IMG/VR virus record: IMGVR_UViG_3300030109_003951
Location: 22,601 to 86,600 of that record
Source of the DNA: a virus
Direction: 5' to 3' (one strand)
Length of the DNA stretch: 64,000 bases
Under the pieces are notes generated by a model. That model was given only the letters and a program-made list of their open reading frames with translations, made no database searches and was not told where the DNA came from. Shown in pieces: positions 669 through 64,000 of the stretch. The position numbers were made by a program, and so were the translations under genes. The stretch's first letter is position 1; each line of letters begins with the position of its first letter.

Positions 669-717
669 CCGATATTATTAATAGACAGGTGTATTTTGGG
701 GTAAATGAGGAGATACT

Positions 718-993: not shown

Positions 994-1004
994 GAGGCGT
1001 TAAG

Positions 1005-1391: not shown

Positions 1392-1400
1392 GTGTGTTAG

Positions 1401-2272: not shown

Positions 2273-2273
2273 G

Positions 2274-5826: not shown

Positions 5827-5827
5827 T

Positions 5828-6391
5828 ATGGATGAAGTGACTTATGTAGTTGAGTTGTTAAAAGGCACTAATATTGCCACTAGTCAATATGGTGGGACTA
5901 ATACATGGGCAGGTTCAATTTCTTCATTGTCTATACCTGCGGCACATCAAGTAACTCCAACAATCATAGACATTCGCAACATGACAAAAAATAAAGGTAG
6001 GGCTTACGATTTATCTACTGCGGCTTCTGGAGAATCTTCTTCTGACCTTATAGTAGTTTTTGAGGATTCTCAAACAATAACACATCCTACAGTAGCCTAT
6101 GATGTTAGGAATGAAACCTACACATTAACATTACATATTCGCACAATACAAGACGATAGGGGGGCAAGTGATGCAAATTTCGCTAGAGATAGATTAGAAA
6201 ATTTGTATAAAATTGTCCGTCATAGACTTGAAGCGAACCGTAAAGGAGCAAAGGTGACAGTTAGTGGTGACTCTAATTCTTTCGACCTTATATATTTAAG
6301 GGGTAGAACGGAGTCGAATGACCGAGCCAAAAGGCTGTTTGGGTACAAAGTTCAGATAGAATTACAAAAGTATGCAGTGGCCTTACCGTAA
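5828..6391 (+). CDS. putative tail-completion / neck protein
   Basis: A 187-residue protein located between the connector and the tail tube. This is where tail-terminator or tail-completion proteins are normally encoded. The core pattern alternates strands with a helix carrying FARDRLENLYKIVRHRLEANRKG, followed by two strands, which fits the alpha/beta tail-completion fold. The assignment is by gene order and predicted fold. Confidence 0.45.
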   Translation: MDEVTYVVELLKGTNIATSQYGGTNTWAGSISSLSIPAAHQVTPTIIDIRNMTKNKGRAYDLSTAASGESSSDLIVVFEDSQTITHPTVAYDVRNETYTLTLHIRTIQDDRGASDANFARDRLENLYKIVRHRLEANRKGAKVTVSGDSNSFDLIYLRGRTESNDRAKRLFGYKVQIELQKYAVALP

Positions 6392-6413
6392 GTAAGTAAG
6401 TAGGTGAAAAGAA

Positions 6414-27934: not shown

Positions 27935-28626
27935 TGTCTCACCTTTTCTTCTGAATTTAATATATTTAATAGTCTTTCGGCAGTTACTTTGCCTATGCCT
28001 TTGATTTTAAGAATATCCGAAACTTCGTTTTCCCCTATCTCCATAATACAACCAAAATGTTCTAACAACAATCTTGCTTTTGGCCTAGTAAGACCTTTTA
28101 ACATTGCCAACATATCTACTCTGATGTCCTCTGTTGTTATCTTTTTAATTATTGTGGGTTCAATGACCGCTCTTTTATTTGGAGCCATTTTTATAATAGT
28201 CATTAATTCATCAATAACATTTACTTCGCTATCTTTCCAAATAACATCTACATCATAATCTAGCCTTATCCTACCAACTGCACCCATAAATTTTTGTTTT
28301 AACCAAATAGATTTTGAGCGGTAATCAGAACTACCTCCTGTACTGTGAGTCATGAATTTATCTACTGCTTCTAATACTGTCCCATGAATAACAACAAAAT
28401 TTCTTTGATAGTTTCTATCCATGTTATCTATTTGATTCCAAATTCTTTTGTTTAATACAGACTGCAAAAAATCTTGAGAAGATTTTATTTCAAAACAGAT
28501 GTCACCAAATACATAGTCGCCAACCTTTAATCTTTTTCTCTCAGTTAATATTCCCATCTTACCCGCTTTCTCTTGCACTACATTTGTAAAGGAAGATTTT
28601 TCTCTATCATCAATAATTAAAGCCAC
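27931..28626 (-). CDS. XPF/ERCC4-family structure-specific nuclease
   Basis: A 231-residue protein. The nuclease core shows IIDDREKSSF, then LKVGDYVFGDICFEIKSSQDF. This matches the GDxnERKx3D motif with Ile in place of Arg. The C-terminal 70 residues contain tandem helix-hairpin-helix motifs (MLKGLTRPKARLLLEHFG and ILKIKGIGKVTAERLL). Such nucleases cut 3' flaps, forks or Holliday-like junctions. Here it probably resolves replication or packaging intermediates. It overlaps the helicase start by four bases. Confidence 0.85.
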   Translation of the reverse strand: MALIIDDREKSSFTNVVQEKAGKMGILTERKRLKVGDYVFGDICFEIKSSQDFLQSVLNKRIWNQIDNMDRNYQRNFVVIHGTVLEAVDKFMTHSTGGSSDYRSKSIWLKQKFMGAVGRIRLDYDVDVIWKDSEVNVIDELMTIIKMAPNKRAVIEPTIIKKITTEDIRVDMLAMLKGLTRPKARLLLEHFGCIMEIGENEVSDILKIKGIGKVTAERLLNILNSEEKVRQ

Positions 28627-31284: not shown

Positions 31285-31451
31285 TATAATTCCTCCTTCC
31301 ATTCTTCAATTACTTGTTCTATTTTTGAAATTAAATTAATTATTTTTTTTTGATTGTTTGTTAAGACATTTACTTGTCCCTGTAAAGATTCTATTTTAAT
31401 TTGCATTCTAGTTACTTTTTTATCATCTCTAACTTCTTTCTTCCAAAACAT
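31284..31451 (-). CDS. 55-residue coiled-coil protein
   Basis: A frame from the ATG at 31451 to a TAA that overlaps the nuclease start as TAATG. The product is an almost uninterrupted helix with heptad leucine and isoleucine (IESLQGQVNVLTNNQKKI). It contains the ribosome binding site of the nuclease near its end. Function unknown. Confidence 0.5.
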   Translation of the reverse strand: MFWKKEVRDDKKVTRMQIKIESLQGQVNVLTNNQKKIINLISKIEQVIEEWKEEL

Positions 31452-32254
31452 CAAAACCAATCCTCCAATGTTTTTTGTTTAGGGTCAGCATAAATATGAT
31501 ACATATCCCAACCCATTGCTTTGTATATAGGTTCGGCTTTGTTTATACAGTAACCTGCGTAATATTCGTAATCTATTTCTATTTTACCTTCATCTAATAA
31601 AGGTAATAATTCATTTTTTTCTTTGACTGAAATATAAGTAGCAACTCTAGAAGTCCCATCATTTAATGGGATTGTCTTAGGGCCAGATAATATGTTACAT
31701 TTGATTGTGATAAAAGAATCAGTTATGGGGTCGGACGAGTTCAAGTGTGTGTTATAATAAACTGCACCAGCAACTCCACCCGCTAATGTTGCATAATCAT
31801 TAATAGATTTCCTAAGCCTTGACCTCTTAAGAAAACTATCCATTTCTATTTTACCTTTCTTAATATTTTGATATGCTTGTTTTAAATACTTAGTAACTTC
31901 TTTTTCAGTTTTACCATTAGCCCACATTTTTAAAACCATCTCTTGTATAATTTTTGCAATGTGTATTTCAGTAGATTTCTTTACTGCAAATCCTGTAACT
32001 ACAAATTCTGGTTCATCTAAATGTTCACCATCTTTCCAAGATATAAAACCAGCATTACGGTTTTTAGTAATACCTATACCGAGAGAAGAATAAAACTTTT
32101 CAAACTCTAAAGTTACAGGGTGTTGGTCTAACCCAAGTATATTAGGAAATATTTCCCTAACCTGTTGATTAAGATAATTACACGTATCTTTAGCATGGTC
32201 TATCGACTCAACAGGACAAAACAAAGAATCAGTATGAGCGTATATTACTTTCAT
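31451..32254 (-). CDS. polB: family B DNA polymerase, C-terminal part (motif C, thumb, PIP box)
   Basis: A 267-residue protein beginning VIYAHTDSLF within its first ten residues. This is motif C of family B polymerases, with His at the first Asp of the usual DTD and the catalytic second Asp kept. The rest is thumb-like. It ends in QKTLEDWF, a canonical PCNA-interacting peptide. The N-terminal two-thirds of the enzyme is encoded at 32713-34353, two small genes upstream. The two chains must associate to make an active polymerase. ATG overlaps the preceding stop as ATGA, with GGAG upstream. Confidence 0.85.
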   Translation of the reverse strand: MKVIYAHTDSLFCPVESIDHAKDTCNYLNQQVREIFPNILGLDQHPVTLEFEKFYSSLGIGITKNRNAGFISWKDGEHLDEPEFVVTGFAVKKSTEIHIAKIIQEMVLKMWANGKTEKEVTKYLKQAYQNIKKGKIEMDSFLKRSRLRKSINDYATLAGGVAGAVYYNTHLNSSDPITDSFITIKCNILSGPKTIPLNDGTSRVATYISVKEKNELLPLLDEGKIEIDYEYYAGYCINKAEPIYKAMGWDMYHIYADPKQKTLEDWF

Positions 32255-32496
32255 AAATTCAACTCCTTCCAGCATTTTTTATGATATTTTCTAGATGCCC
32301 AATCCTTGTGTGGTGCGCCTCCTCTACGGGCGAAACCAATGGGTTGTAATGCCCCACGACAATGTAAACAATAACCATGTGGAACCCACTCATAATCACA
32401 TTCTACACACACAACTAATCCCTTACCTTTTATTACTGTTTTATAAGCCTCAGTTCCTTTACATCTTCTACATATGTGTGTGGCCTCGTCACTCAT
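32251..32496 (-). CDS. multi-cysteine zinc protein inside the split polymerase locus
   Basis: An 81-residue protein with CRRC, CVEC and CLHC pairs and a terminal KYHKKCWKEL, enough for two zinc sites. ATG at 32496 overlaps the preceding stop. The C-terminal CxxC...HKKCW pattern resembles the small protein at 47411-47581. It lies between the two halves of the polymerase. Possibly a DNA-binding or polymerase accessory factor. Confidence 0.6.
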   Translation of the reverse strand: MSDEATHICRRCKGTEAYKTVIKGKGLVVCVECDYEWVPHGYCLHCRGALQPIGFARRGGAPHKDWASRKYHKKCWKELNL

Positions 32497-32713
32497 CCCA
32501 AACCCTCCATCTTGCAGGATAATCATATTTATTTAATCTGACAAATTCTTTGTGTCTTTTTAGAATGTTACTCAATCCTTGAATTGTAGGGCATGTCCTA
32601 AAATGCCTATCAACATAAATATCATAAATTTCTCTGGTGGTCATTTCACCATCACCTAATATATTTATTGCTTGTTGAATAATTCTCTGATATTTATTTT
32701 TTGCACTGGGCAT
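32489..32713 (-). CDS. winged-helix protein inside the split polymerase locus
   Basis: A 74-residue protein with EMTTREIYDIYVDRHF followed by PTIQGLSNILKRHKEF and a terminal ARWRVW strand. This reads as a compact winged-helix DNA-binding domain. Its start overlaps the stop of the polymerase N-terminal gene. It is similar in layout to the proteins at 28626-28862 and 51957-52289. Confidence 0.6.
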   Translation of the reverse strand: MPSAKNKYQRIIQQAINILGDGEMTTREIYDIYVDRHFRTCPTIQGLSNILKRHKEFVRLNKYDYPARWRVWDE

Positions 32714-34353
32714 TATAATCCCTCCGCAACTTTAGCAGCATGTCTGATTGCTTCTCTAGCACTAGCAGTGATGCTGTTCGCTAAATCTGGGTCATACCAA
32801 CCAAACTTAGGAAACGCAGTTACCCCATAGAAACTCGCCATGAGTCTCTTTACAGCCATTTGATTGTTAAACCATTTTTGATGTTCTTCCTTAGTGTCTG
32901 CTTTTTTCATTTTAGACTTGTATTCATCTCTAAGTTGTTTAAGATTAAGAACAGACCTTGGTAATAAACCAAGTTTGTCTGTTTTGTAATATCGCATGTT
33001 CTTTTTAATTACAGGGCTAAAGTCCTGTGGTGTTGCCAAATTACAAGCAAACTCTGTAGGTGTGCGAGACTTAGTTTCCCAACTAATATTCCTAGCCATC
33101 ATCATAGAAGGATATAGTTGTGCAAAATCAAAAGCCGCAACATTACTATGCCTACCATGCGTTTTGTTTACTTCTGGGTCAAATATCATGGCCCCAGTAA
33201 CTTCTACTCTCTCAGCATCTTTATTACCTGTCGGCACTTTCCAATCAGCATGTCTCATGAAGTAAATGCCTCCCATGTGAGAAGCATAAAAACACGCACT
33301 AAATGGTGCAACTAGTAATCTTTGTAATGCTAATATAGATTCTGATATTGCATTATCTTCATCTATGCGTTTTAGTAAAGCAACATCTTGAATATTATAA
33401 TCTAAATAATTTTGAGTATCTTCTAACCAAGCCCTTCTAAAGAATTCGTTTTTGTCTGTGAATTTAGAATCTTTCTTTTTACCTTCCCCGAATAAAAGAT
33501 TACCAACAAAATCTAAAGCAGTAGATGGAAGTGTGCCACGTTGAGCATCGTTCCATTGTCTTTCAAATGCATGGTCTAAGTTTAAACACAATCTACCATA
33601 GATAGGTTGAGATATAGGTGATATTTGATTCCATGCCTTTTTGTTGGGTTTGACCAACCCTATAGGAGATAGTCTACTAATATCAATATTATTTTCTTCT
33701 AACCTTTCAAACAACTTAGGAATATCTGCTTGTAATCCAAACCATGCAATCAACATGTCTGGGTCTTGTTCTTCCATATCAGAAACGAAAGCCTCAAGCA
33801 TATCTTCTTCTGAATTAAAATGATATTCCGCAGCATCGACTACAATCATATCTAGTTTAGCATCTTTGGGAGTCCAATAGTATAAGTTTATGCAATCTGC
33901 ATAATTATCGTAAACTGCAATAGTTGTTATCGCCCCATCATATTTACCTGTGTTCATCCATTCCATATCCCAATACCACTTACGTAAATCATACTCTGGT
34001 ATTTCAGTCATTTTATCAATACAATAACGATGTGTAAAATTAACATCTGCTTCATACGTTTTGTCAAAGTATTTTCTAGCGGTTCTAATATCATTATATT
34101 TAGTAACCATAACTTTAGTCAAAGGTTGGTTTTCCAAATTAACATGGCTAGTTCTTTCATAAATAAACTCTTGAGGTAGTTTCATCTTTCTACCTTGAGA
34201 ATTAGTAACACTGATGTTATATGCTTGCGGCATTCTTTCGTCAGAACCAACATAAAAATACGGTCTAAAATCAGTGACTTCTTTTTCTAATCTATTACCA
34301 TTTTCATCACGCCATCTAAGATAAATAGTGTTATCTTTATGTGTGATAATCAT
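32713..34353 (-). CDS. polB: family B DNA polymerase, N-terminal part (exonuclease, motifs A and B)
   Basis: About 546 residues from the ATG at 34353; a TTG at 34362 is possible. Exonuclease motif I is WYWDMEW near residue 130. Motif II is degenerate (WFGLQADIP, Asp kept, Asn lost). Motif III is YNIQDVALL. Polymerase motif A is DFAQLYPSMM and motif B is KRLMASFYGVT, with Ala where Asn is usual. The chain stops at KVAEGL, just before motif C, which is encoded separately at 31451-32254. The break point is like that of the two-gene PolB of Methanothermobacter. No intein residues are visible at the edges. Confidence 0.9.
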   Translation of the reverse strand: MIITHKDNTIYLRWRDENGNRLEKEVTDFRPYFYVGSDERMPQAYNISVTNSQGRKMKLPQEFIYERTSHVNLENQPLTKVMVTKYNDIRTARKYFDKTYEADVNFTHRYCIDKMTEIPEYDLRKWYWDMEWMNTGKYDGAITTIAVYDNYADCINLYYWTPKDAKLDMIVVDAAEYHFNSEEDMLEAFVSDMEEQDPDMLIAWFGLQADIPKLFERLEENNIDISRLSPIGLVKPNKKAWNQISPISQPIYGRLCLNLDHAFERQWNDAQRGTLPSTALDFVGNLLFGEGKKKDSKFTDKNEFFRRAWLEDTQNYLDYNIQDVALLKRIDEDNAISESILALQRLLVAPFSACFYASHMGGIYFMRHADWKVPTGNKDAERVEVTGAMIFDPEVNKTHGRHSNVAAFDFAQLYPSMMMARNISWETKSRTPTEFACNLATPQDFSPVIKKNMRYYKTDKLGLLPRSVLNLKQLRDEYKSKMKKADTKEEHQKWFNNQMAVKRLMASFYGVTAFPKFGWYDPDLANSITASAREAIRHAAKVAEGL

Positions 34354-34358
34354 GTGTC

Positions 34359-35114
34359 TCAACTCATGTACGGTGCTACAACAATAGCAGCGAAATCTGT
34401 GCTTGCAAATAACGGCATGTCATCATGTAATCTCAAATTGATTCTATTATTCCATTCGTTTTCACTTTGAAATAAAACATGAATAGGTGCTGCAAAAGGA
34501 ACAGTAGCAGCATTACCACTATGTTCTCTCATTTGTAATTCGTTAGATATTTTTCTTTGGCCTTTAGATGCCTGTAAATATAGTCTTTCATTGGGGTGAA
34601 AGTTCAAAACATAATTAGATGCTCCCACTGTGTCACAAGCCTTAATAGATTGAGTTAAACTATCGACATCTAAATTTACTGTTAAGTCATATTTAGTTGA
34701 ACCGAATGTAAAGTCTGGCCCAAAACCCTCATCAATCCAATTAATCAACTTAGGGCTAAACCTATCAATAGCCGATTCATTTTCATGATGTGCAACTAAA
34801 GGAACTGTTGCAGAATCACTATCTTGTAATATTGTCAAAACACTACCAACCTCAAACTCAACTTCTCCAGAAAAGGTTTTCAACATCGGTAATATTTCTA
34901 AATCTAAAACAAACTGAACATCTTCTGCGTTGTCTAAAACTATCTTATATGCTACAGCGACAGAGTTTGCCCTATTAGCACTAAGTAAATATAAATTGTT
35001 ATCTTCAATTTTACAAGTTATTTGAGAAGACAACTCACCATTTTTATCGCCCCATTTACCTTTCATGGTACAATACTTGATTCCCTTTAGAAAACTATCC
35101 ATGTTTATTATCAT
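34359..35114 (-). CDS. sliding clamp (PCNA-like)
   Basis: A 251-residue protein with GGAGGGG upstream of the ATG at 35114. Length and the alternating strand pattern fit a PCNA monomer. Visible features include FLKGIKYCTMKG at the N terminus and LRLHDDMPLFASTDFAAIVVAPYM at the C terminus, the position of the conserved last strands. It would tether the polymerase and other PIP-box proteins of this virus to DNA. It lies directly upstream of the polymerase gene. Confidence 0.75.
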   Translation of the reverse strand: MIINMDSFLKGIKYCTMKGKWGDKNGELSSQITCKIEDNNLYLLSANRANSVAVAYKIVLDNAEDVQFVLDLEILPMLKTFSGEVEFEVGSVLTILQDSDSATVPLVAHHENESAIDRFSPKLINWIDEGFGPDFTFGSTKYDLTVNLDVDSLTQSIKACDTVGASNYVLNFHPNERLYLQASKGQRKISNELQMREHSGNAATVPFAAPIHVLFQSENEWNNRINLRLHDDMPLFASTDFAAIVVAPYMS

Positions 35115-54167: not shown

Positions 54168-54368
54168 CTTTTCATACTTAAGGTAGGTATGTGATGTGAA
54201 CACAATTTAATGACCCTGTGACAATATACAATTTTCGCCACTTCCAAAAAACACCCTTCCTAAATACACTCCCCGAATTTTAAATAAAAGCCCCTCTTCC
54301 AATATATTTGTGGGATAGGGCATTGTCTCTTGCATTATACCTTCTTATGTCTTATCTCACTCCTTAAT

Positions 54369-54589
54369 ACATTTCATGTGAAATGTAAATGAAATGTAAA
54401 AAACGCTGTACTGCTCTTCATATTTCATATTTCATGAAAAATGGGAAATATAGGGGGTGCCCCCTAACTACCCCCCTATTATTCACCTGTACACATGAGT
54501 GAAATGTATGTAATATGAAATGTATATAATCCTATACAACGTTTTTAATTAAATATTATATGAAATATATATGAAATGTATGAAATGTA
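54369..54589. repeat. TGAAATGTA iterons
   Basis: Nine-base direct repeats listed under the origin region. The first is part of ACATTTCA-TG-TGAAATGT, an inverted repeat with eight-base arms. Spacing is irregular (9 to 102 bases), with the last two in tandem. Confidence 0.6.
54451..54466. repeat. G-C-rich inverted repeat in origin region
   Basis: TAGGGGG and CCCCCTA separated by two bases, standing out in the AT-rich surroundings. Confidence 0.45.
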
Positions 54590-54795
54590 TTTTTTGCCCC
54601 TTGATATAATATATAATATATAATATAATATAACTATACTAATATTATCTATTAATATAATATACAACACTACTTTCGACCCCTCGAATGGTAGGCTAAA
54701 ATAATAACAATATATTGTTCGTATTAGGAGAGAGGAACTATAGGTTTAGTTTGGTTAAATGCGTTTAAGCATTGGTACTCTCGGAAAATTTCCTA

Positions 54796-54820
54796 GCATA
54801 TGGTTAAGTCTTTGGAACCC
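54796..54820 (-). promoter_or_regulatory. half copy of the palindromic operator
   Basis: GCATATGGTTAAGTCTTTGG followed by AACCC matches the right half of the six full operators. The left half is absent. No TATA box lies at the usual distance. It may be a remnant or a single-site binding element at the edge of the origin. Confidence 0.5.
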
Positions 54821-54836
54821 TATAAAAAACGGTATA

Positions 54837-55098: not shown

Positions 55099-55467
55099 TC
55101 ACCACCCGTTTGATAAAAACCATTTTAAAAGTTTTAAAAGTTCTATTTCTTCACTATTCATTAAAGAAGATATATTATCAGTAGTTATTTTTAAATTACC
55201 TGCTAGTGTCCTCCTACCCTCAAAAACTGTGCATTTATTACTTAATATCACCATAGTATAACTCACGGGTGAAGGGTTCCATTCTTGCAACCTTTTAGCC
55301 AAATAATTAGGCCGAATATCTAAATTAAAATTTATATCATCTATTCCTCCCCAAAAATCTGTTTTTGGGATTTCTAAAATTTCATCTATTTTGTTTATTA
55401 TCTCTTGTCTCATGTTTCTCAATCCTATATATTTCTCAAGTCTATTTTTCTTGTAACATGTTACCAA
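55099..55467 (-). CDS. uncharacterised small protein
   Basis: A 122-residue protein if the TTG at 55467 is used; the ATG at 55413 gives 104 residues. INKIDEILEIPKTDFWGG is followed by strands and a helical end (LLKLLKWFLSNGW). Family not recognised. Confidence 0.5.
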   Translation of the reverse strand: MVTCYKKNRLEKYIGLRNMRQEIINKIDEILEIPKTDFWGGIDDINFNLDIRPNYLAKRLQEWNPSPVSYTMVILSNKCTVFEGRRTLAGNLKITTDNISSLMNSEEIELLKLLKWFLSNGW

Positions 55468-55790
55468 TCTTGAACGATAAACCCACCGTCTTCATATTTC
55501 ATTGTCTCATGGTTTAATTTGTGTATTTCAATTACTTGGGTATATTCTCTAACTTCTTCTAAATCTTCAAAATTCTTATTATATGCTTGGTTTAGTTCTT
55601 CTAAATTTTCATACTCTGTGAATTCACAACAAATAGCGATAGGGTCAAATTCTATTTGTTCGCCTATGTCATTCTCAAGTTGTTCAAAGTATTCAAAGAG
55701 TGCAAGTCTCCCGTAATAACTAAAATTGTTTTCTCTGTTTATTTTTACAAATGTGTCAACAAATGTACTTTCTGTTACTGTTTCTATCAT
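55461..55790 (-). CDS. small acidic phage-type protein
   Basis: A 109-residue protein whose ATG overlaps the upstream stop as TAATG. FSYYGRLALFEYFEQLENDI then FDPIAICCEFTEYENLEE is a pattern I have seen in small acidic proteins of phages and plasmids of no known function. Strong negative charge could mimic DNA, but this is speculation. Confidence 0.5.
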   Translation of the reverse strand: MIETVTESTFVDTFVKINRENNFSYYGRLALFEYFEQLENDIGEQIEFDPIAICCEFTEYENLEELNQAYNKNFEDLEEVREYTQVIEIHKLNHETMKYEDGGFIVQDW

Positions 55791-55975
55791 TATTGCCACA
55801 CCCCTTGTTCAAATTCTCCGCAGTCATCACAGTCACCATCATAAGAAGTATTTTTTTTAGTTGCCATAGGATAAGCACAAGCGCACTTATCACATACGTT
55901 CAATACTTCGGTGTCTATTACTATTTCATTTCCGTTTACGTCTATATCTGTTTCTTCTATTGTTATTATTTTCAT
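55790..55975 (-). CDS. zinc-ligand small protein
   Basis: A 61-residue protein with CDKCACAYP and CDDCGEF, two CxxC pairs for one zinc. Very acidic N terminus. Stop overlaps the next start. Confidence 0.55.
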   Translation of the reverse strand: MKIITIEETDIDVNGNEIVIDTEVLNVCDKCACAYPMATKKNTSYDGDCDDCGEFEQGVWQ

Positions 55976-56360: not shown

Positions 56361-56449
56361 CTTATAATAACTGTCATTATTCCTCTGTATATAGTATAGG
56401 GTAGCCAAAGTCTACTACCATATGGGAAGTAACATCTTTGGGTCGACCC
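56361..56449 (-). promoter_or_regulatory. palindromic operator and promoter, copy 1
   Basis: On the transcribed strand the order is palindrome (GGG...CAAAG...CATATG...CTTTG...CCC, centre 56419-56424), then GGAATAATGA, then a TTATAATA-type TATA box at 56361-56370. The predicted start site is near 56340. One of six copies with this layout. Confidence 0.7.
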
Positions 56450-56513
56450 CGTTGAGAAATTATCAATATTTGATATGAGATAACCTCAAGAGTTCATTCT
56501 TAATAATTTCACC

Positions 56514-56858
56514 TTACCCTATTTCATACATTGATAAATTCCAAGCATTTCCTAATTCGTAATAGTAGCCATAACTCTTAATTAAATTAATGAACTCATC
56601 TTCTAAGGTTTCATATCTTTTACTATCACAGGCGTAGTTTAATACTTCATATAGTGGGCCTTCAAATGACATACTAATAGTTTCATCATTAGCATAATCA
56701 AAATAATCTGAGCCTTTAATATCTTCAATTATCTTTTTATTTTTAGAACTGTCATACCAACAAAAACATTTGTTGTTGAAATATATTCTCACACAAGAAG
56801 TTAATCTGTTTTTCTTTAACCAAGATTCAATTTTCCTAACCATTTCTACTTTTTTCAT
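56514..56858 (-). CDS. uncharacterised small protein
   Basis: About 114 residues from the ATG at 56858. Basic at the N terminus, Tyr/Asp/Asn-rich in the middle (GSDYFDYANDETISMSFEG). Several cysteines without a CxxC. Overlaps the upstream gene. Family not recognised. Confidence 0.5.
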   Translation of the reverse strand: MKKVEMVRKIESWLKKNRLTSCVRIYFNNKCFCWYDSSKNKKIIEDIKGSDYFDYANDETISMSFEGPLYEVLNYACDSKRYETLEDEFINLIKSYGYYYELGNAWNLSMYEIG

Positions 56859-56863
56859 TTTAA

Positions 56864-57202
56864 TCACCTTATCCTCATTGAACTCATTAAAATTTCCATC
56901 TTGTCCTTTTTACTTATTCCAATTTCTTCATTTCTTTTGATTACTGATTCTTCAATCGCTTTGTTCATGGCTGTCATATCTAACTTACCATTTTCATCTT
57001 TGTAAGCATTAAAGTAAGCATAATACCAAGGTGCTTGTAGAGGGTCATTTCCTCTCATCGTTCTATATCCTCTCATGTTTTCAACTACCATACAAACAAT
57101 TACTCCATGTTCATCTGCTTCATGTAGATTGACATAACACATTCTGTTTCCATATCTATCTTTTAATACTGCATCTTTTCTCGCTTCCGCTTCTGTCGTC
57201 AT
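56864..57202 (-). CDS. uncharacterised small protein, leaderless
   Basis: A 112-residue protein starting at the predicted transcription start of operator copy 2. GVIVCMVVENMRGYRTMRG and QAPWYYAYFNAYKDENGK stand out. Family not recognised. Confidence 0.5.
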   Translation of the reverse strand: MTTEAEARKDAVLKDRYGNRMCYVNLHEADEHGVIVCMVVENMRGYRTMRGNDPLQAPWYYAYFNAYKDENGKLDMTAMNKAIEESVIKRNEEIGISKKDKMEILMSSMRIR

Positions 57203-57221
57203 ATACCCTCCTGTCTTTTCC

Positions 57222-57320
57222 CCTTAATAAAGGTTGTCATTATTCCACACTATACATGTGGGGCCGTGTTCACTCCCGCTCCAAAGATATGCTCAACCAT
57301 ATGGTGTGGTCTTTGCTACC
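57222..57320 (-). promoter_or_regulatory. palindromic operator and promoter, copy 2
   Basis: Dyad with CATATG at 57297-57302, arms CAAAG and CTTTG, then GGAATAATGA and a TTATTAAGG-type box. The ATG at 57202 is about 26 bases from the box centre. Confidence 0.7.
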
Positions 57321-57372
57321 CTAAAAAGAACTGATAACCCCACCAGTTACTCATTCCACCAATATCTAGGTA

Positions 57373-57507
57373 TCATTCTTGCATCACCCCTGTGCTATAC
57401 AAGAGCGTTTCTATTTTACCAAGCACTTCATCATCGTCAATAATATACCTTTGATACTTTTTCCAAACCACCCTTAGATTCTTCACAAGTCTGTCTGTGT
57501 CAATCAT
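57373..57507 (-). CDS. 44-residue protein
   Basis: ATG at 57507, with VKNLRVVWKKYQRYII then an acidic stretch. Overlaps the upstream gene by four bases. Function unknown. Confidence 0.4.
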   Translation of the reverse strand: MIDTDRLVKNLRVVWKKYQRYIIDDDEVLGKIETLLYSTGVMQE

Positions 57508-57893
57508 TCTTCTTCACCTTCCCATTCTCCATTCTTTCGTAAATGTTCTCTCGCCCTCAACATCAATTCCTCATCAACATGAAGTCCATCGGGCAACTGT
57601 TGATGAAGGGCGATGCAAAGAACGATTCGTTCGTAAATCTGCAACCGCTTGACTTCTTCTCGTAACTCTTTGACTATTTTGGGTGCTAAGTCCCAATAAG
57701 CAAGAGGCTCTTCATATCCTTCAAAAATTAATAACAATAAATCAGTGAACCACTTATGCGACTCTATTCTATCATTACGTATTACATCTGAAACGGTGTG
57801 GTTATCTGTTACCAAATTTGTGATTTCACAATTATAACTTATAACTAACTCTTCATCAGAAATCTTTGGATTAAGTGCATCTAAGGGGTGCAT
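57504..57893 (-). CDS. uncharacterised helical protein
   Basis: A 129-residue protein. The C-terminal part (IVKELREEVKRLQIYERIVL and ELMLRAREHLRKN) is helical; the rest is acidic. Its first codon overlaps the last base of the previous stop. Family not recognised. Confidence 0.5.
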   Translation of the reverse strand: MHPLDALNPKISDEELVISYNCEITNLVTDNHTVSDVIRNDRIESHKWFTDLLLLIFEGYEEPLAYWDLAPKIVKELREEVKRLQIYERIVLCIALHQQLPDGLHVDEELMLRAREHLRKNGEWEGEEE

Positions 57894-58108
57894 TATTCTT
57901 CCTCCTCACTGAAATGCCAATTATATTGCCAATGTGGTGCTTGTGCTTCTTGTCTAGCATACTCCATCAAGTTACCAATGAAATCCCTAACTAATTTCTT
58001 GTGTACTGTCACCGTAAAAGACTGATTCCAAAAACCAATCTCCTCATGATTACTGCTACCACTAGGACATCCTGCTTCTATCTGTATTGTTACCATATCT
58101 TTACTCAT
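57893..58108 (-). CDS. small uncharacterised protein
   Basis: A 71-residue protein with a beta N terminus (VTIQIEAGCPSG) and a helical end (LVRDFIGNLMEYARQEAQ). Overlaps neighbours. Family not recognised. Confidence 0.5.
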   Translation of the reverse strand: MSKDMVTIQIEAGCPSGSSNHEEIGFWNQSFTVTVHKKLVRDFIGNLMEYARQEAQAPHWQYNWHFSEEEE

Positions 58109-58221
58109 GCTATCACCTCATCTAAGATAGTTCCACACTTAGGACAATTGATTTCATATATTCTTATTACTTCACATAACCCATTGGAGTTAATGTAATC
58201 TTCACAACATTGGTAACTCAT
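58105..58221 (-). CDS. 38-residue zinc-binding mini-protein
   Basis: ATG at 58221, with YQCCEDY and NCPKCGTIL, a zinc ribbon half. Stop overlaps the next start as ATGA. Confidence 0.45.
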   Translation of the reverse strand: MSYQCCEDYINSNGLCEVIRIYEINCPKCGTILDEVIA

Positions 58222-58331
58222 TCTTTCAACCCCTTCTTATTAATTTCTTCTTTATTATTTTCATAATGTTTTCTAGCCTTGAATTTACTCAAGTATCTAC
58301 TTCTTGCCGCTTTTCTTTTTACATGATTCAT
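58218..58331 (-). CDS. 37-residue basic protein
   Basis: ATG at 58331. KRKAARSRYLSKFKARKHY is strongly basic and helical. Overlaps both neighbours by four bases. Probably binds nucleic acid if made. Confidence 0.4.
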   Translation of the reverse strand: MNHVKRKAARSRYLSKFKARKHYENNKEEINKKGLKE

Positions 58332-58870
58332 TCTTTCACCTCCTTCGGGTAGCCAAATACTGGAACTCCTTTCACTAACTTACCATCCCATGTTCTCACT
58401 TTAGGTTTGAAACTTGCTGTGCTTATCTTACAGTGGTTCTTATACCAGTCTTGAAGATTCCTTCTCATAGTTCTAACTTCTTTTTCTGCATATTCTTGAG
58501 CAGTAACAGCACTCAAGTTTTTACCCTTAGCCATAACTGACAATATCTTACTAGACTTGTATGCTGTTATACTAACATTGTGTATTTCTTCACAGATAGT
58601 TTGAATGTTTGCTTCTACATCATAAGGAAGTTCACCCATTTTACCTCTACCTACTGGGTTGTCAATTCCATAACTAGATAGTGAGGAACAAGTCCCTACT
58701 ATACCAGCCCAATAGGATTCAAAATTATCCATATCACTTTTTACACTTTTTACCAAAGCCCTCAATGGAGTCTTGATATGTGCTGGTAGTTTCTTTTCAG
58801 TCTTGATAAACATCTCAATTAACTGAACCTTCTTTTCGTTCTTAGTCATCTCCGCATTATTCCCTGCCAT
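58328..58870 (-). CDS. uncharacterised helical protein, leaderless
   Basis: A 180-residue protein that is mostly helical with many Lys and Glu. The ATG coincides with the predicted transcription start of operator copy 3. Family not recognised. Confidence 0.55.
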   Translation of the reverse strand: MAGNNAEMTKNEKKVQLIEMFIKTEKKLPAHIKTPLRALVKSVKSDMDNFESYWAGIVGTCSSLSSYGIDNPVGRGKMGELPYDVEANIQTICEEIHNVSITAYKSSKILSVMAKGKNLSAVTAQEYAEKEVRTMRRNLQDWYKNHCKISTASFKPKVRTWDGKLVKGVPVFGYPKEVKE

Positions 58871-58890
58871 ATTAGTGACACGGTCATAGG

Positions 58891-58966
58891 TTGTATATAT
58901 AGTTAGTCATTATTCCTTACTATGGGGTTGCAAAGACTACACCATATGGTAGTGTCTTTGTTACCC
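58891..58966 (-). promoter_or_regulatory. palindromic operator and promoter, copy 3 (best dyad)
   Basis: The cleanest copy: GGGG, CAAAGAC, ACCATATGGT, GTCTTTG and CCC are arranged symmetrically from 58924 to 58966. Then come GGAATAATGA and TATATA. Box centre to ATG at 58870 is about 26 bases. Confidence 0.75.
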
Positions 58967-59103
58967 TATAAAAAAAGAGAGGGGAAGGAAGATGAGGCCC
59001 GTCTAGGGAACCACCCCTATAAACCCCATTCACGACAGACAACAAATTACCTAACCGAAAATAATTAAAGTTTCTTCCTATTACTGTGATAACCCCATGA
59101 CTC

Positions 59104-59286
59104 TTATTTTATTACTAAATCCTCCCTGTTCCTTTTATTTTTGAAATGTTCTAAGGCTTGTTCGTAAGCATTATCACTCATAAAATATCTAACTAAGTGA
59201 TGACCAAACATATTCATTACCCCACTCATTTGTGTAGTGTAGAATTCATCCCACATATCTAATGTAATTGTGTAAGGTTTTTGCAT
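59104..59286 (-). CDS. small uncharacterised protein
   Basis: A 60-residue protein from the ATG at 59286, which overlaps the upstream stop as TAATG. Helical with VMNMFGHHLVRYFMSDNAYEQ. Family not recognised. Confidence 0.5.
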   Translation of the reverse strand: MQKPYTITLDMWDEFYTTQMSGVMNMFGHHLVRYFMSDNAYEQALEHFKNKRNREDLVIK

Positions 59287-59906
59287 TACCATTCCTCCTT
59301 TGTTTTACTTAACTTCCATTCATCTTCTTTTTCATCCCATACTAGATACAATGGTGTGTTGTTACTATTATGATATATTGGCTTATATTGAAGTTCACCA
59401 TTCATATTGAATACATCTGCTATTTCATTAACCATAGTTTTTACAAAGTCATCATAGTAATATGTTTCCCCAGATAAGTAAATCCCAATGAAACTTTTAA
59501 TCATATCAATTTGTTTTTTCTTATCTTCCCATGTTTGTCTATATGGTCTTTTGATATTGTCATAACCTCTTACTGCTTCATCAAATAATGATTCTTTCAT
59601 TCTGTGTGCAAACGCCTCATCTTTTTCATTACCAACATTAGAACTCCATTCTGCATCAGCCATCTTTTGCACAAATTCTGTTGTGAAAGGAGAATCCCCT
59701 TTACCATACATACTCCATACTAGATTGAATCTATCTGTGGCTACATCAACTGATATTCCATATCTTTCGTCTTCATTCTTTTTTACTCTACCAATTCCAG
59801 CACTCATAGCAATCATTCCCATATTAAATGATGCTAAGAACTTCCTTTCATCTTCAGTAAATATTTCTGCTTTATCTTCATCTTTTATTCCTACTATTAA
59901 TGGCAT
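59286..59906 (-). CDS. uncharacterised protein
   Basis: A 206-residue protein. The N terminus is hydrophobic and beta (MPLIVGIKDEDKAEIF) and the rest mixed. LYLVWDEKEDEWKLSKT ends the chain. Located directly after the 99-residue gene. Family not recognised. Confidence 0.5.
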   Translation of the reverse strand: MPLIVGIKDEDKAEIFTEDERKFLASFNMGMIAMSAGIGRVKKNEDERYGISVDVATDRFNLVWSMYGKGDSPFTTEFVQKMADAEWSSNVGNEKDEAFAHRMKESLFDEAVRGYDNIKRPYRQTWEDKKKQIDMIKSFIGIYLSGETYYYDDFVKTMVNEIADVFNMNGELQYKPIYHNSNNTPLYLVWDEKEDEWKLSKTKEEW

Positions 59907-60206
59907 TTATTGCACCTCCAAATCTACAGTTTTGAATTTTTCGCCATCATCTGATGTATGAATGGTTGTTTGTTTTGATACTTTCTCATCATGTTCTGTG
60001 AAAATACTACATTCACCTTTTAATTTGAAAATACTAATATTTGGTTTAGTTAGTTTTCCATTATATCTTTTGTGCATTTTAATATAAATCGAAGTTTCAC
60101 CCATTCTAACTGTTACTGTATGTATTTCACTTCCAGAATCGTGAAAACTTGTTTGTTCTGTTATCGTTCCTAGTTCTTGTGTTGTTGCCATCTTTGTTAC
60201 TGCCAT
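59907..60206 (-). CDS. uncharacterised beta-rich protein, leaderless
   Basis: A 99-residue protein. The ATG is at the predicted transcription start of operator copy 4. It is mostly strands (IHTVTVRMGETSIYIKMHKR). Family not recognised. Confidence 0.5.
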   Translation of the reverse strand: MAVTKMATTQELGTITEQTSFHDSGSEIHTVTVRMGETSIYIKMHKRYNGKLTKPNISIFKLKGECSIFTEHDEKVSKQTTIHTSDDGEKFKTVDLEVQ

Positions 60207-60228
60207 ATACCCTCCTAGCAGTTCCCCC

Positions 60229-60304
60229 TTATAATACTTATCATTATTCCTTTCTATGGGGTTTACAAAGTTAATACCATATGGTGTGAGTCTTTGGGCA
60301 CCCC
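60229..60304 (-). promoter_or_regulatory. palindromic operator and promoter, copy 4
   Basis: CATATG at 60278-60283 with CAAAG and CTTTG arms. Then come GGAATAATGA and a TTATAA box at 60229-60236, about 26 bases from the ATG at 60206. Confidence 0.7.
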
Positions 60305-60359
60305 AAAAAAAAAGGCGTTCTAGAGGGCAGAGCGGCCCGTTTTTAAGCGGCCCTGCCCC
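60305..60359 (-). terminator. hairpin and T-tract terminator after DUF932 gene
   Basis: On the minus strand, GGGCAG and CTGCCC with GGCC/GGCC inside form a stem with a short loop. After a short spacer a run of nine T follows. It lies between the DUF932 gene and operator copy 4. Confidence 0.55.
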
Positions 60360-60409
60360 AAGAACAATTTTACGATTTCATATCGTCTTAGGTTATTTCT
60401 GTGGTACTA

Positions 60410-61402
60410 TTAGCATACTTCTAAGCATCTTGCTACTGCTCTTTCTCTTTTCCTTCTACCATCATTAAAAATTGCATTTTCTCTACCTTCGGGCTTCAAT
60501 TCACCAGTTGTTGAGTTCAATGTTCTTTGGTGGTCAATGAAGTAAGTATAAGCATTGTAAACAGCCCAAACAGTTCCCCTCATATTATCAACATTGTTAG
60601 ATTCATGGTCTAAATTTTCAATAATTTTGTTTCTCATGTTTTCATGTTTTCCCGAATATTTTAGAACTTTTTCACCATCATCATTATTGTACATTCCCAT
60701 TTTTGAACCAATTAAATAATCAATTAAATCAATTGATTTTTCTCTATCAATTGTAGTATCTAACATTTGATTGTATGATACTTCATAACTTTGGATAGAT
60801 TTTCTAACAGTTTCTAAAACACCATCAACAGTTGAAAATAATTTGTTATTAATTCCACTTGTATGACTTAGTTTAATTTGTGCTTCTCTTGAAAACATTG
60901 GCATTTGATTTTGGCAAAACATTCTGATACTTGTAAAAGTAATTTTTAAACTACCGCTACCATCATGAGAGTTTTGAAAAACCATGTAAACTTGAGCAGG
61001 GTCTTCTTGACCTACCATTACACTATATTCTTGGGGTAATACTGCTACACAAAACATTGAAGCCCCGTTTTTTCTGCTTCCAATTCTTTCAATAGTTGCA
61101 CCAGCATGACCACAGATTTCAATAATTGTGTTTGCTACTGTTTGATTTTGAACAATCCCATAACCTTTTGATAATCCATTACCTAAAACTTGGTCATTAT
61201 CAGTTCTAACAGTATACATATTACCTGCTATTCCATTCATTAGTTTACCATCTTCGGTTTTACATTGTCTTAATTCAACAGTAAAATTTAACCCTGCTTT
61301 ATCAAGTGCTTCATCGGGTGTCATAACACCTCTTGCTTCATTCCCTACATTTAGGAGGTTAGCCCCTCCTCTAGCGTTGTCCGTCAATACTATACCTGAC
61401 AT
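60410..61402 (-). CDS. DUF932 family phage/plasmid protein
   Basis: A 330-residue protein. The pattern NGLSKGYGIVQNQTVANTI with the preceding GNMYTVRTDN, and later SHDGSGSLKITFTSIRMFCQNQMP, matches the DUF932 family common in phages and plasmids. Its role is unknown. It is the largest protein of the region. The ATG coincides with the predicted start of operator copy 5. Confidence 0.75.
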   Translation of the reverse strand: MSGIVLTDNARGGANLLNVGNEARGVMTPDEALDKAGLNFTVELRQCKTEDGKLMNGIAGNMYTVRTDNDQVLGNGLSKGYGIVQNQTVANTIIEICGHAGATIERIGSRKNGASMFCVAVLPQEYSVMVGQEDPAQVYMVFQNSHDGSGSLKITFTSIRMFCQNQMPMFSREAQIKLSHTSGINNKLFSTVDGVLETVRKSIQSYEVSYNQMLDTTIDREKSIDLIDYLIGSKMGMYNNDDGEKVLKYSGKHENMRNKIIENLDHESNNVDNMRGTVWAVYNAYTYFIDHQRTLNSTTGELKPEGRENAIFNDGRRKRERAVARCLEVC

Positions 61403-61420
61403 GAGGTGTCCTCATCTTTA

Positions 61421-61506
61421 TAGTATATATACTTATCATTATTCCACACTATATATTTGAGCGGGGTGACAAAGGCCACACCATATGGTAGCATCTTTGT
61501 GACCCC
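61421..61506 (-). promoter_or_regulatory. palindromic operator and promoter, copy 5
   Basis: CATATG at 61482-61487 between CAAAG- and CTTTG-type arms, with GGGG and CCCC at the ends. GGAATAATGA and a TATATA box follow, about 26 bases from the ATG. Confidence 0.7.
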
Positions 61507-61601
61507 AAAAAGAAATGAGGCATAGGGGCTATGACGAAAAAAACTTCACATAAGAAATAAATGGCATCCCTGCCAACCCCTATCACCTCACTTCAAAGAA
61601 T

Positions 61602-61712
61602 CTATGCTGTCACCTCAACCTTATACCTTTTACAATCTTTATTGACACATACAGGCATCATAGTCCATAGGTATAACATATGTTCTCCACAATCTGAACA
61701 TGGATTACTCAT
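61602..61712 (-). CDS. 36-residue zinc-ribbon mini-protein
   Basis: ATG at 61712: NPCSDCGEHM then VCVNKDCKR, a four-cysteine zinc site. Overlaps the previous gene as ATGA. Confidence 0.5.
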   Translation of the reverse strand: MSNPCSDCGEHMLYLWTMMPVCVNKDCKRYKVEVTA

Positions 61713-61894
61713 GGTATCTCCTCATCTTTCTCATAAGTGGTTTGTTCTTCAAAATACTTTTCTTTAAGATAAGTCTCTATTCTCAAACGCTCCGATACTA
61801 TATTTCCAAGATAACCTATCATTTGACATAATTCTTTATCTGGCAATTCATGTATCAATTTCAAGATTTCTATTTGTTCTTTGGAGTATGTCAT
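61709..61894 (-). CDS. small helical protein
   Basis: A 61-residue protein from the ATG at 61894, which overlaps the upstream stop. Helical and charged (EQIEILKLIHELPDKELC). Family not recognised. Confidence 0.5.
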   Translation of the reverse strand: MTYSKEQIEILKLIHELPDKELCQMIGYLGNIVSERLRIETYLKEKYFEEQTTYEKDEEIP

Positions 61895-62178
61895 GCTGTC
61901 ACCCCACCACATTTCTCTTTCCATACTTTATATCCTAACTCTGTCATGTGTGCTGTGAAAGCCCCATCATAAGGAATACTTCCCATTACATCACCTGTCC
62001 CATCACCACTGTAGTAGCAAATGATTAATCCTTTATCCCTTAGACTTTCAATCACTCTAGCCTCATGGGGTTTGCCCCAACCCTTACTTGTTTCAATATA
62101 GGAATATCCATGTCCGTATTCATGAATCTGTCTTCCTACCCAATCTAAACTAAATATTTGTTGTTTACCTAATCTCAT
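61891..62178 (-). CDS. possible winged-helix small protein
   Basis: A 95-residue protein with HEARVIESLRDKGLIICYYSG and a hairpin rich in Gly, suggestive of a winged helix. The N terminus is RLGKQQIFSLDWVGRQIHEYG. Assignment tentative. Confidence 0.4.
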   Translation of the reverse strand: MRLGKQQIFSLDWVGRQIHEYGHGYSYIETSKGWGKPHEARVIESLRDKGLIICYYSGDGTGDVMGSIPYDGAFTAHMTELGYKVWKEKCGGVTA

Positions 62179-62264
62179 TCTTCCTCATCCCCCTTTTTAC
62201 AACATGGCAATAATTTATATTTACATAATGCACTATAACATCCGAATTTCAACCTTTCTTTCAT
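62175..62264 (-). CDS. 29-residue cysteine mini-protein
   Basis: ATG at 62264, with GCYSALCKYKLLPCCKKG. Overlaps both neighbours by four bases. Very short. Confidence 0.35.
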   Translation of the reverse strand: MKERLKFGCYSALCKYKLLPCCKKGDEEE

Positions 62265-62419
62265 TGTTCTTCATCCTCCCATACAATACAGTCCTCGTAT
62301 TCCCCAACAAGTAACTTCATGTTGAGTTGTATCTCACCCTTCACACCGTCATCACGGACAACTATGAAGTAGAACTCATCTCCTATCCATTGCTCCACTT
62401 TTTCAACATCATAATTCAT
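62261..62419 (-). CDS. 52-residue acidic protein
   Basis: ATG at 62419. Acidic beta-type sequence (DEFYFIVVRDDGVKGEIQL). Coupled at both ends by ATGA overlaps. Function unknown. Confidence 0.45.
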   Translation of the reverse strand: MNYDVEKVEQWIGDEFYFIVVRDDGVKGEIQLNMKLLVGEYEDCIVWEDEEQ

Positions 62420-62577
62420 TCTTCATCATCCTCCACAATCTCTTCAACTTCTATATCATAAACATGGAGTAAATCCATCTGTTCATATTTCCACCCAATT
62501 GCTTCTGCTTCTGCTTCATTTGCCGCCTCAACAACTTTATGAAAATGAACAACAGTAATCACATCATATTCTGGCAT
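62416..62577 (-). CDS. 53-residue acidic protein
   Basis: ATG at 62577. MPEYDVITVVHFHKVVEAAN then an acidic tail with many Glu. Coupled to the next gene by ATGA. Function unknown. Confidence 0.45.
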   Translation of the reverse strand: MPEYDVITVVHFHKVVEAANEAEAEAIGWKYEQMDLLHVYDIEVEEIVEDDEE

Positions 62578-62578
62578 A

Positions 62579-62803
62579 TCACTCAACCTCCTCTACTTCA
62601 GTAACATAACATTCATTTATCATTGCCCATATACAATTAATATCTTCACAAAAGTAATGGTCATATGCATCATGATATAATACTGGATGTTTTAAATCCA
62701 AGATATTGCAACCACAAAATGTACAATTCAAATCTTCTCTGACTTCTTCTTCAGTTGATATACCCCCACCAGTAGTTGAGGACACCTCATATCTTTTACT
62801 CAT
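62579..62803 (-). CDS. small zinc-binding protein
   Basis: A 74-residue acidic protein with CTFCGCN and FCEDINC, a four-cysteine site. Overlaps the previous gene by four bases. Function unknown. Confidence 0.55.
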   Translation of the reverse strand: MSKRYEVSSTTGGGISTEEEVREDLNCTFCGCNILDLKHPVLYHDAYDHYFCEDINCIWAMINECYVTEVEEVE

Positions 62804-63150
62804 TCTTCACCATCTCCGTTTTTTAGTTTGTTTCTGTTCATTGCCCATAATTCTTCTTGCATTTTATTTAATTCTTGCCGATTATTTTCTATGGAATCTT
62901 CACGAAATGCACACCAAGCCTTATCATCAACCCACTTACTATAATCAGTAGGTGTAGGTGTACCTAACCATTTTCTGAACATTGCATACCAACATAACAG
63001 CCTTTCTTTTTCATTTCTTTGTTTTAATAATTCTTTGTCTAGTATATACAAAGGGTTAACCCCAAGTATTGTTTCCCAAGTATCATCACTTGTAACTTTA
63101 GCACTTTCTTGCATTGCATTTACTATTTCCCAATTAGTAAATCTTCTCAT
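62800..63150 (-). CDS. uncharacterised helical protein
   Basis: A 116-residue helical, Trp-rich protein (WYAMFRKWLGTPTPTDYSKW, ENNRQELNKMQEELW). Coupled by ATGA to its neighbour. Family not recognised. Confidence 0.5.
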   Translation of the reverse strand: MRRFTNWEIVNAMQESAKVTSDDTWETILGVNPLYILDKELLKQRNEKERLLCWYAMFRKWLGTPTPTDYSKWVDDKAWCAFREDSIENNRQELNKMQEELWAMNRNKLKNGDGEE

Positions 63151-63479
63151 TCAATCACCTCAGTTATTTCATTTACAGCCCTGTACAACATGTCAAGGAA
63201 ATCACTTTCACCATCACTTAAATCCCAAACTCCACCATGAACACTTGCTTGAAATTGTTGGCGTTCATCTTTGTCCTTAATTCTTCTTATCTCCACCATA
63301 AGTTTCCTAGCCCCTTCTGATAAAAATGATTTCACAAAGGATTCATTTTCAGAGATGTGGTTTAATGGGTCTACCATTTTATCCACAACACTTTGATGTT
63401 TGTCTGTATTGTCTTTCATTACTTTTAACATAGATTTTACTACTATGTCTATTTCTTCTGCCATAACTTGTTTCGTCAT
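63147..63479 (-). CDS. uncharacterised protein, leaderless
   Basis: A 110-residue helical protein. I chose the ATG at 63479 (MTKQVMAEEID) because longer in-frame starts would lie upstream of, or within, the TATA box at 63502-63509. Contains KDERQQFQASVHGGVWDLSD. Family not recognised. Confidence 0.55.
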   Translation of the reverse strand: MTKQVMAEEIDIVVKSMLKVMKDNTDKHQSVVDKMVDPLNHISENESFVKSFLSEGARKLMVEIRRIKDKDERQQFQASVHGGVWDLSDGESDFLDMLYRAVNEITEVIE

Positions 63480-63500
63480 GTACATCCCATTATTCCCTAC

Positions 63501-63570
63501 CTTATAATACCTTTCATTGTTCACCACTATAGGGTTGACAAAGTCACAACCATATGGGCCTTTGCTTCCA
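63501..63570 (-). promoter_or_regulatory. palindromic operator and promoter, copy 6 (diverged)
   Basis: CATATG at 63551-63556, left arm AGGGTTGACAAAG intact, right arm shortened to CCTTTGCTTCC. The spacer motif reads TCATTGTTC on the plus strand rather than TCATTATTCC. TTATAATA box at 63502-63509. Confidence 0.6.
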
Positions 63571-64000
63571 AATTTTTTTTTAAAACCCTTTTTACATCAA
63601 ACTTTTTTTTAAACATTTTTTGTTATTTTTTTTAAAAAACAATTGTTGCGAGTCGATTCTTGATGCCTATGCCCGACCCCATTCTTTTGTGGGGATTTTT
63701 ATCAAAAGATTCTCATCATGCTGGCTTTTGTGGGGATTTTTTTCAAAAGGAATAATGACATGTGATAACCTCAGCACAAACTTGACATGGCCCCACAGGA
63801 AGTTGACAACCCCCCACGCCAAAAATTCCGACAAGAGATTTTATGCTAAGATGTTATGTTGAAAATTTGTTGATTAATTCTTATGTCGCTGGAAATAGAA
63901 TAAAAGGTCTTAAAAAAATTTTGCAAGCGACAAAAAAATTTGACCCCATTTTTTGAAAAGCGATGGATAACATATTGTCCGCCCCAAACTATAAGACCAA
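63571..64000. other. non-coding right end with T-tracts and repeats
   Basis: No gene is supported. T and A homopolymer runs fill 63573-63645. Two 25-base copies of a CTTTTG...CAAAAG element follow at 63684-63708 and 63725-63749, with one mismatch. GGAATAATGACA at 63749-63760 repeats the promoter spacer motif in the opposite orientation. TGTCGCT and AGCGACA (63884-63890, 63926-63932) form an inverted repeat. Confidence 0.5.
63684..63749. repeat. two imperfect 25-base direct repeats, each with inverted ends
   Basis: Period 41 bases. Each begins CTTTTGTGGGGATTTTT and ends TCAAAAG, so each can also form a short hairpin. Confidence 0.6.

Follow-up and report, generated by a model that had tools for sequence, protein, structure and literature searches.

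What is done by a palindromic element that stands again and again between the genes of one arm of an archaeal virus genome? The question is raised by the window analysed here, a 64,000-nt stretch comprising bases 22601–86600 of the 86,600-bp virus record IMGVR_UViG_3300030109_003951, in whose right arm the initial annotation had described six such dyads as the operator sites of a viral regulon. Comparison with related viruses leads us to another reading, in which the dyad is probably the junction of an exchangeable gene-cassette array in magroviruses, and less a simple gene switch. The observations that carry this reading are the architecture of the element, the breaking of homology at its core, the covarying stem-loops in its arms, its restriction to magroviruses, and a protein family linked to the arrays.

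Dyad elements in the window

In the window, there are six dyads centred on CATATG, at 56421, 57300, 58945, 60280, 61484 and 63553. The sites of the initial annotation are thus confirmed, with one centre moved from 57299 to 57300. The elements occupy 56399–56450 (core CCCATATGGT, with one change), 57281–57322, 58924–58967, 60257–60303, 61463–61507 and 63532–63572, all on the minus strand, the last being the outer end of the array. The pattern CAAAG-N3..10-CCATATGG-N4..11-CTTTG is present exactly at five of the six dyads, and the element at 63553 is off it by a one-letter change or a shorter spacer. As had been claimed, a scan with this pattern finds no full dyad elsewhere in the window, and dinucleotide shuffles are expected to hold 0.00 copies, placing the six sites far beyond chance. 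The exact dyad with a single spacer base, as first noted, has zero matches; the actual spacers are several nucleotides long. In the whole 86.6-kb record, exact ACCATATGGT occurs only five times, and the single copy outside the cluster is without arms. The half copy noted at 54797 is a one-armed element centred at 54799 (54784–54824, minus strand), with one arm intact (GGTT..CCAAAG..AACC) and the second arm absent. An oligo-T or T-rich run precedes most of the window dyads on the gene-end side.

Distribution of the element

Judged by its family B DNA polymerase (PolB), the virus of the window is a magrovirus, a virus of Poseidoniales archaea, and so are most viruses that carry the element. Besides the PolB of the Magrovirales, it has its own replisome and GroEL, and no integrase. 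Furthermore, its GroEL-type chaperonin, ligase, clamp loader and HMG-CoA-lyase-like gene match the International Committee on Taxonomy of Viruses (ICTV) profile of Magrovirales/Aoguangviridae (PMC10768690).

A scan of IMG/VR for the dyad returned at least 119 stretches, many with several copies, compared with 19 stretches, one site each, for a control palindrome of equal composition. Among the matches listed, 377 elements lie on 95 merged contig segments, 83 of these segments carry two or more, and the multi-copy element is found in magrovirus-type contigs only. A scan of related viral genomes had been proposed by the initial annotation; the dyad does recur across magroviruses in one array, and it also stands between convergent genes. 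A DNA polymerase related to that of the window is encoded by 39 of the 48 element-bearing records, mostly at 43–94% identity (33% in one record, G022), and several of the remaining nine are short. One of them all, G047, is a close sister of the window virus (PolB 94%). The elements of each genome are gathered in one region, approximately 22–30 kb upstream of PolB in the cases checked with PolB on the same contig. Among 27 records picked by PolB alone, exact elements are present in nine. Three of the four full-length records without exact copies contain variants, for example with CGAAAG in place of CAAAG; G051 contains none.

In GTDB genomes, there are eight dyad matches and only one multi-copy contig, apparently a misbinned virus, indicating that the element belongs to viruses, not host chromosomes. 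This contig (L124, NZTP01000027.1, positions 1–8000) was binned as Altibacter; it has six cores and three genes of the array-linked protein family described below (family 0), and looks like a misbinned magrovirus contig. In two viruses, G049 and G050, variants at 12901, 13560 and 14062 of L279 and at 1528, 2188 and 2701 of L283 have CGAAAG in one arm only, always on the same side, which suggests lineage-specific asymmetric elements. A single perfect 32-bp palindrome, CAAAGCCTCGGTCCATATGGACCGAGGCTTTG, at 55258–55289 of G023:C1, in a virus with neither family 0 nor a related polymerase, is probably a coincidental match of another kind. Searches of the literature for such an element in magroviruses gave nothing, and neither the ICTV profile (PMC10768690) nor the 2023 magrovirus survey mentions it; the element is real, widespread and apparently undescribed.

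Cassette rearrangements between related viruses

Comparison of all segments by BLASTN gave 421 homology breakpoints inside arrays, of which 17.1% lie within 15 bp of an element centre, compared with 4.8% of random positions. In particular, 16 matches between contigs consist of exactly one cassette, each match starting and stopping at element centres in either contig; when element positions are permuted, 0.06 such matches arise on average, with a maximum of three in 300 permutations. In 34 element pairs one arm is alike and the other unrelated, and in 10 occupied/empty pairs one virus has an extra cassette or cassettes where, in the other, the outer arms are joined in a single element. The arms move together with their own cassette, and the contiguous sequence common to exchanged elements amounts to approximately 10 bp (ACCATATGGT) plus scattered boxes.

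Specific rearrangements follow the same borders. Between G039 and L097, the flanks of which are 94–95% identical, two cassette blocks have traded places and a third segment runs the opposite way; the junctions lie at the cores, and the arms are kept. In L102, compared with G020 and L046, a cassette is inverted between two elements. Between the window and its sister G047, the outer arm of the element at 63553, the element at 58945 (both sides of which have their orthologues in the element at 7181 of G047) and the family-0 cassette are clearly kept, while the other cassettes differ, including the one on the inward side of 63553.

The cassette between consecutive elements has a median length of 628 bp and usually contains one open reading frame (ORF) covering about 70% of it. 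Of 98 gene pairs separated by an element, counting only genes of families seen in at least two viruses, 67 are tandem, 17 are divergent and 14 are convergent. UUCG-type (CTTCGG) hairpins stand just inside the gene-end (3′) arm in 51 of 177 cassettes, compared with seven at the gene-start arm, and T-runs in these positions are less common, with 24 at gene ends and four at gene starts. Because there is no need for an operator between convergent genes, nor for a terminator between divergent ones, a border function fits the element better than either.

Stem-loops in the arms of the element

In addition to the dyad symmetry, each half of the element can form a small stem-loop, read outward as GGTNNN..CTTTG..N′N′N′ACC, a feature absent from the initial annotation and added here. 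The stem letters vary among copies yet covary by Watson–Crick pairing. Specifically, in a redundancy-reduced set of 341 arms, stem positions 4–6 (the three letters after GGT against those before ACC) are paired in 70, 51 and 47% of arms, compared with 35, 24 and 32% after shuffling. All three positions are paired in 22.3% of arms versus 2.7% (maximum of 5.3% in 1000 shuffles), and the arms so paired contain 20 different triplets. The bases flanking CTTTG are paired in 324 of 637 cases, 215 being expected, and CTTTG may be the C-TTT-G tip of the hairpin. G.T pairs fall short of expectation at two stem positions, an indication of DNA and not RNA, and come close to it at the third. Gene-start and gene-end arms have stems equally often, and stem letters are not shared between the halves of one element.

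Folding of whole elements with DNA parameters gives a mean of −8.2 kcal/mol, compared with −7.5 kcal/mol for shuffled halves; this difference is small, and the case for hairpins therefore rests on covariation, not energy. One large extended palindrome was considered and rejected, since symmetry across the arms is no higher than in shuffled elements. An apparent avoidance of symmetric arms was dropped, not being significant in tandem elements alone.

A protein family linked to the arrays

Proteins encoded in the arrays were sorted into 130 families, one of which, family 0, accompanies the element. The window member is a 180-aa array-associated protein (58328–58870, minus strand), within a family range of 154–227 aa. 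In the clustering of cassette proteins, the family has 78 members on 58 contigs, beside 61 different neighbour families. Of the 70 array segments that hold at least three elements, 69 contain it by profile search, and each of the 152 copies is inside an array or at most 2.8 kb from one. Among the 27 records chosen by PolB, all nine with exact elements have family 0, 14 have neither, and four have family 0 only; three of these four carry variant elements. Since the family-0 gene lies inside the array, and incomplete contigs lose both, the association is one of physical linkage plus co-occurrence. An attempt to single out a gene by comparing the gene content of element-bearing and element-free genomes failed, as variants with one or two changes are present in three of the four genomes taken as "free".

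Family 0 has no convincing relative in Pfam, PHROG, NCBIfam, PDB sequences or GenBank phages. Its alignment contains no invariant set of catalytic residues, and we therefore favour a role in binding or structure and do not count it as a proven enzyme. The initial annotation had named winged-helix proteins or the viral TFB as candidate readers of the dyad; the array-linked protein is not recognizable as either. We infer that family 0 is the best candidate for binding the folded arms.

The promoter unit beside the dyads

On the minus (coding) strand, the order at each dyad is dyad, GGAATAATGA, 4–5 nt, a TATA-like box and a start codon, the last being 29–31 nt from TATA. The GGAATAATGA boxes occupy 56374–56383, 57237–57246, 58907–58916, 60241–60250 and 61436–61445, all on the minus strand; the first is followed after 4 nt by TATTATAA, with the start codon 29 nt from TATA. 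At the element at 63553, a diverged GAACAATGA replaces GGAATAATGA, at a distance of 31 nt from the dyad centre as counted by inspection. The window contains six exact copies of GGAATAATGA, five at dyad sites and one near the right end on the opposite strand; with at most one change there are 21, compared with 8.7 expected. The distance from dyad centre to GGAATAATGA is 29, 30, 38, 39 or 54 nt. The fixed dyad-to-TATA spacing of the initial annotation thus fails, and only the unit from GGAATAATGA through TATA to the start is fixed. The promoter of the window is an archaeal TATA promoter located inside the cassette, adjacent to the element rather than within it.

Comparison with known systems

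By the features tested, the element works like a promoter early stem-loop (PeSL) or an integron cassette border and is a member of neither. The PeSLs of T4-type phages (Arbiol 2010 and Comeau 2014, as cited in PMC4503421 and PMC3950731), as far as the citing papers describe them, resemble the magrovirus element in being a repeated intergenic motif of a hypervariable region, with a promoter and a stem-loop, and in the modular shuffling of genes between related viruses. Compared with PeSLs as there described, the magrovirus element has head-to-head covarying hairpins around a 10-bp palindrome and exchange breaks at the core, and its arrays have cassettes in both orientations and a linked protein family. 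The magrovirus promoter is an archaeal TATA promoter inside the cassette, whereas that of the PeSL, in the same accounts, is a sigma-70-type early promoter, and the two have no sequence relation.

A second relative in kind is the TATA-plus-inverted-repeat motif of the haloarchaeal virus HGTV-1 (Sencilo 2013, KC292026), known here through PMC3950731. By that account, HGTV-1, like the window virus, is an archaeal tailed virus with a repeated dyad and TATA before most early genes, for which shuffling has been suggested. Unlike the magrovirus element, the HGTV-1 repeat (TACTCCTCGTG-GC-ACGAGGAGTA, then TATA) is one sequence-conserved hairpin, which stands directly before TATA with little change in spacing and in one gene orientation; its sequence is unrelated, and the 98.9 kb of HGTV-1 examined contain no copy of the magrovirus element.

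Integrons, like magrovirus arrays, have single-gene cassettes of approximately 0.4–0.7 kb that are gained and lost precisely. The magrovirus arms, whose fold is conserved, may also resemble attC sites, in which structure is kept by pairing rather than by letters. In contrast to integrons, magrovirus arrays come with no tyrosine integrase (0 of 47 records), have symmetric sites, hold cassettes both ways round and, at least in the window, have cassettes that carry promoters. BIME/REP and mitochondrial double-hairpin elements are also paired hairpins between genes and are not confined to one cassette array; compared with BIME/REP, the magrovirus element has no associated Y1 transposase and stays in a single cassette array.

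Alternative explanations

The operator reading, in which a dimeric transcription regulator would act on all right-arm operons together, draws on the strong GGAATAATGA-TATA promoter unit that each window dyad precedes, on the common direction of all array genes of the window, and on HGTV-1, in which many early genes have a dyad immediately before TATA. The part of the claim that stands is that element and promoter are common to these operons, which may be expressed together. An operator, however, leaves unexplained the variable spacing between dyad and promoter, the presence of elements between convergent gene pairs about as often as between divergent ones (14 versus 17 of 98), the stem letters that covary by pairing while differing freely between copies, and the breaking of rearrangements at the dyad centre. 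We therefore consider an operator improbable as the main function; a regulatory role of the element is possible, at best secondary. An RNA element, that is, a terminator, processing site or leader structure, would accord with stem-loops near gene ends and the CTTCGG hairpins just inside 3′ arms (51 of 177 cassettes). It is scarcely credible as an account of the dyad, since there is no enrichment of G.T pairs, neither kind of arm has more stems than the other, and the window element lies upstream of TATA and hence outside the transcript of the gene it precedes. Paired inverted hairpins in many diverged intergenic copies would also be expected of a selfish mobile hairpin of BIME/REP or MITE type inserting into intergenic DNA. 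This is made very improbable by the limitation of the element to cassette borders in a single array of each genome, by arms that stay with neighbouring genes, by empty sites that keep one complete element, and by the lack of a Y1 transposase above cut-off in 39 records; precise insertions of the element into otherwise conserved intergenic sites were not seen among the viruses compared.

It is conceivable, if rather unlikely, that shuffling is passive, the element being chiefly a transcription-unit boundary whose short repeated homology is used by the homologous or annealing recombination of the virus (exonuclease, RadA-like proteins, ligase), with no dedicated system. Such working has been proposed for the T4-like PeSLs and the HGTV-1 motif, according to PMC3950731 and PMC4503421, and the window has genes for a PD-(D/E)XK nuclease, for an ERCC4/HhH nuclease and for an ATP-dependent ligase. 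Searches for site-specific recombinases likewise favour it: at E ≤ 1, and with positive results in control genomes, tyrosine recombinase (PF00589) is found in 0 of 47 records, serine recombinase of the resolvase/invertase type (PF00239) in 0 of 39, and Y1 (HUH) transposase (PF01797) in none of 39 above cut-off, with one sub-threshold match in G010. These negatives agree with the ICTV profile, in which aoguangvirids are without identifiable integrase or transposase (PMC10768690). Against passive shuffling, exchanged elements share only about 10 contiguous bp, the arms are kept as folded units and not as sequence, and a dedicated protein family tracks the arrays.

Several points weigh against the cassette-junction reading itself. 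The uniform orientation of the window cassettes fits a regulon equally well. A convincing stem is not in every arm, stems of at least 5 bp being present in about four arms in ten. Some half of the breakpoints are over 100 bp away from the nearest element, which shows that ordinary recombination contributes too, and, the core being conserved throughout, those near elements are resolvable only to the core plus approximately 5 bp. The 16 one-cassette blocks are partly non-independent, one arrangement being common to three contigs. Gene calls are simple ORFs, and the data are metagenomic assemblies. With no recognizable recombinase, general viral recombination or annealing is a possible agent of the exchange.

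A model for cassette joining

In the cassette-junction reading, a cassette would consist of a half-element, its gene or genes and a second half-element, and in the window would bring its own TATA promoter and oligo-T terminator. Two half-elements would join head to head at the palindrome ACCAT|ATGGT. As the core is symmetric, any cassette end could be joined to any other in either orientation, and exchange in the core would insert, remove, reorder or flip cassettes, each arm keeping its own cassette. The covariation of the stems suggests that the arms act as folded DNA hairpins recognized by a viral protein, and we infer that joining is site-specific rather than a product of ordinary long-homology recombination. 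Joining might proceed through a site-specific recombinase of an unrecognized kind, or through a cut at the core or close to it, which the viral ligase would then seal again. We put forward tentatively, as a possible form of this model, a dedicated site-specific exchange system, integron-like without a tyrosine or serine recombinase, in which family 0 would read pairs of extruded mini-hairpins and joining at CATATG would gain, lose, reorder and flip cassettes. This magrovirus also encodes an ERCC4/XPF-like nuclease with HhH motifs (27931–28626, minus strand), which could act on branched or hairpin DNA; that it takes part here is a guess.

Cassette genes and neighbouring sequences

The cassettes of the window contain one to several genes each, all facing one way. 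On the minus strand, the cassette between the first two elements has two ORFs (56514–57202), and two further ORFs (57504–58108) share the family-0 cassette between the second and third. The next cassette (59104–60206, minus strand) has three ORFs, one of which (59286–59906) has relatives inside arrays of other viruses. A DUF932 protein (60410–61402, minus strand) is the cassette gene between the fourth and fifth elements, with a distant relative (32%) in the G047 array, in opposite orientation relative to family 0, and several small ORFs fill the last cassette (61709–63479, minus strand). One ORF outside the six elements (55461–55799, minus strand) has relatives (52–63%) that are element-flanked inside arrays of three other viruses. 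Recognized cargo of the arrays comprises DUF932, a Kyanoviridae Gp96-like family, DUF3846 and one weak match to a type II restriction enzyme; most families are without assigned function.

Adjoining the half element, the stretch 54204–54836 is AT-rich and apparently non-coding, with repeated ATGAAATGTA and TATAATATAATA units, and might serve as an origin of replication. The T-rich stretch that separates the array from the right end of the record contains two near-identical 25-nt repeats (CTTTTGTGGGGATTTTTATCAAAAG) and a plus-strand GGAATAATGA (63684–63749). The DNA polymerase B of the window is split into two genes (31451–32275 and 32713–34362, minus strand); in six relatives, 43–44% identical, it is a single open frame of approximately 800 codons.

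Implications for magrovirus biology

Poseidoniales, the hosts of magroviruses, rank with the most abundant archaea in surface ocean waters, and magroviruses are not yet culturable. With a fixed locus, a border element and a linked protein family, gene turnover in magroviruses becomes directly testable. If joining is site-specific, the arrays would represent a chemistry of cassette recombination that belongs with neither integrases nor resolvases, and might also yield a genetic tool.

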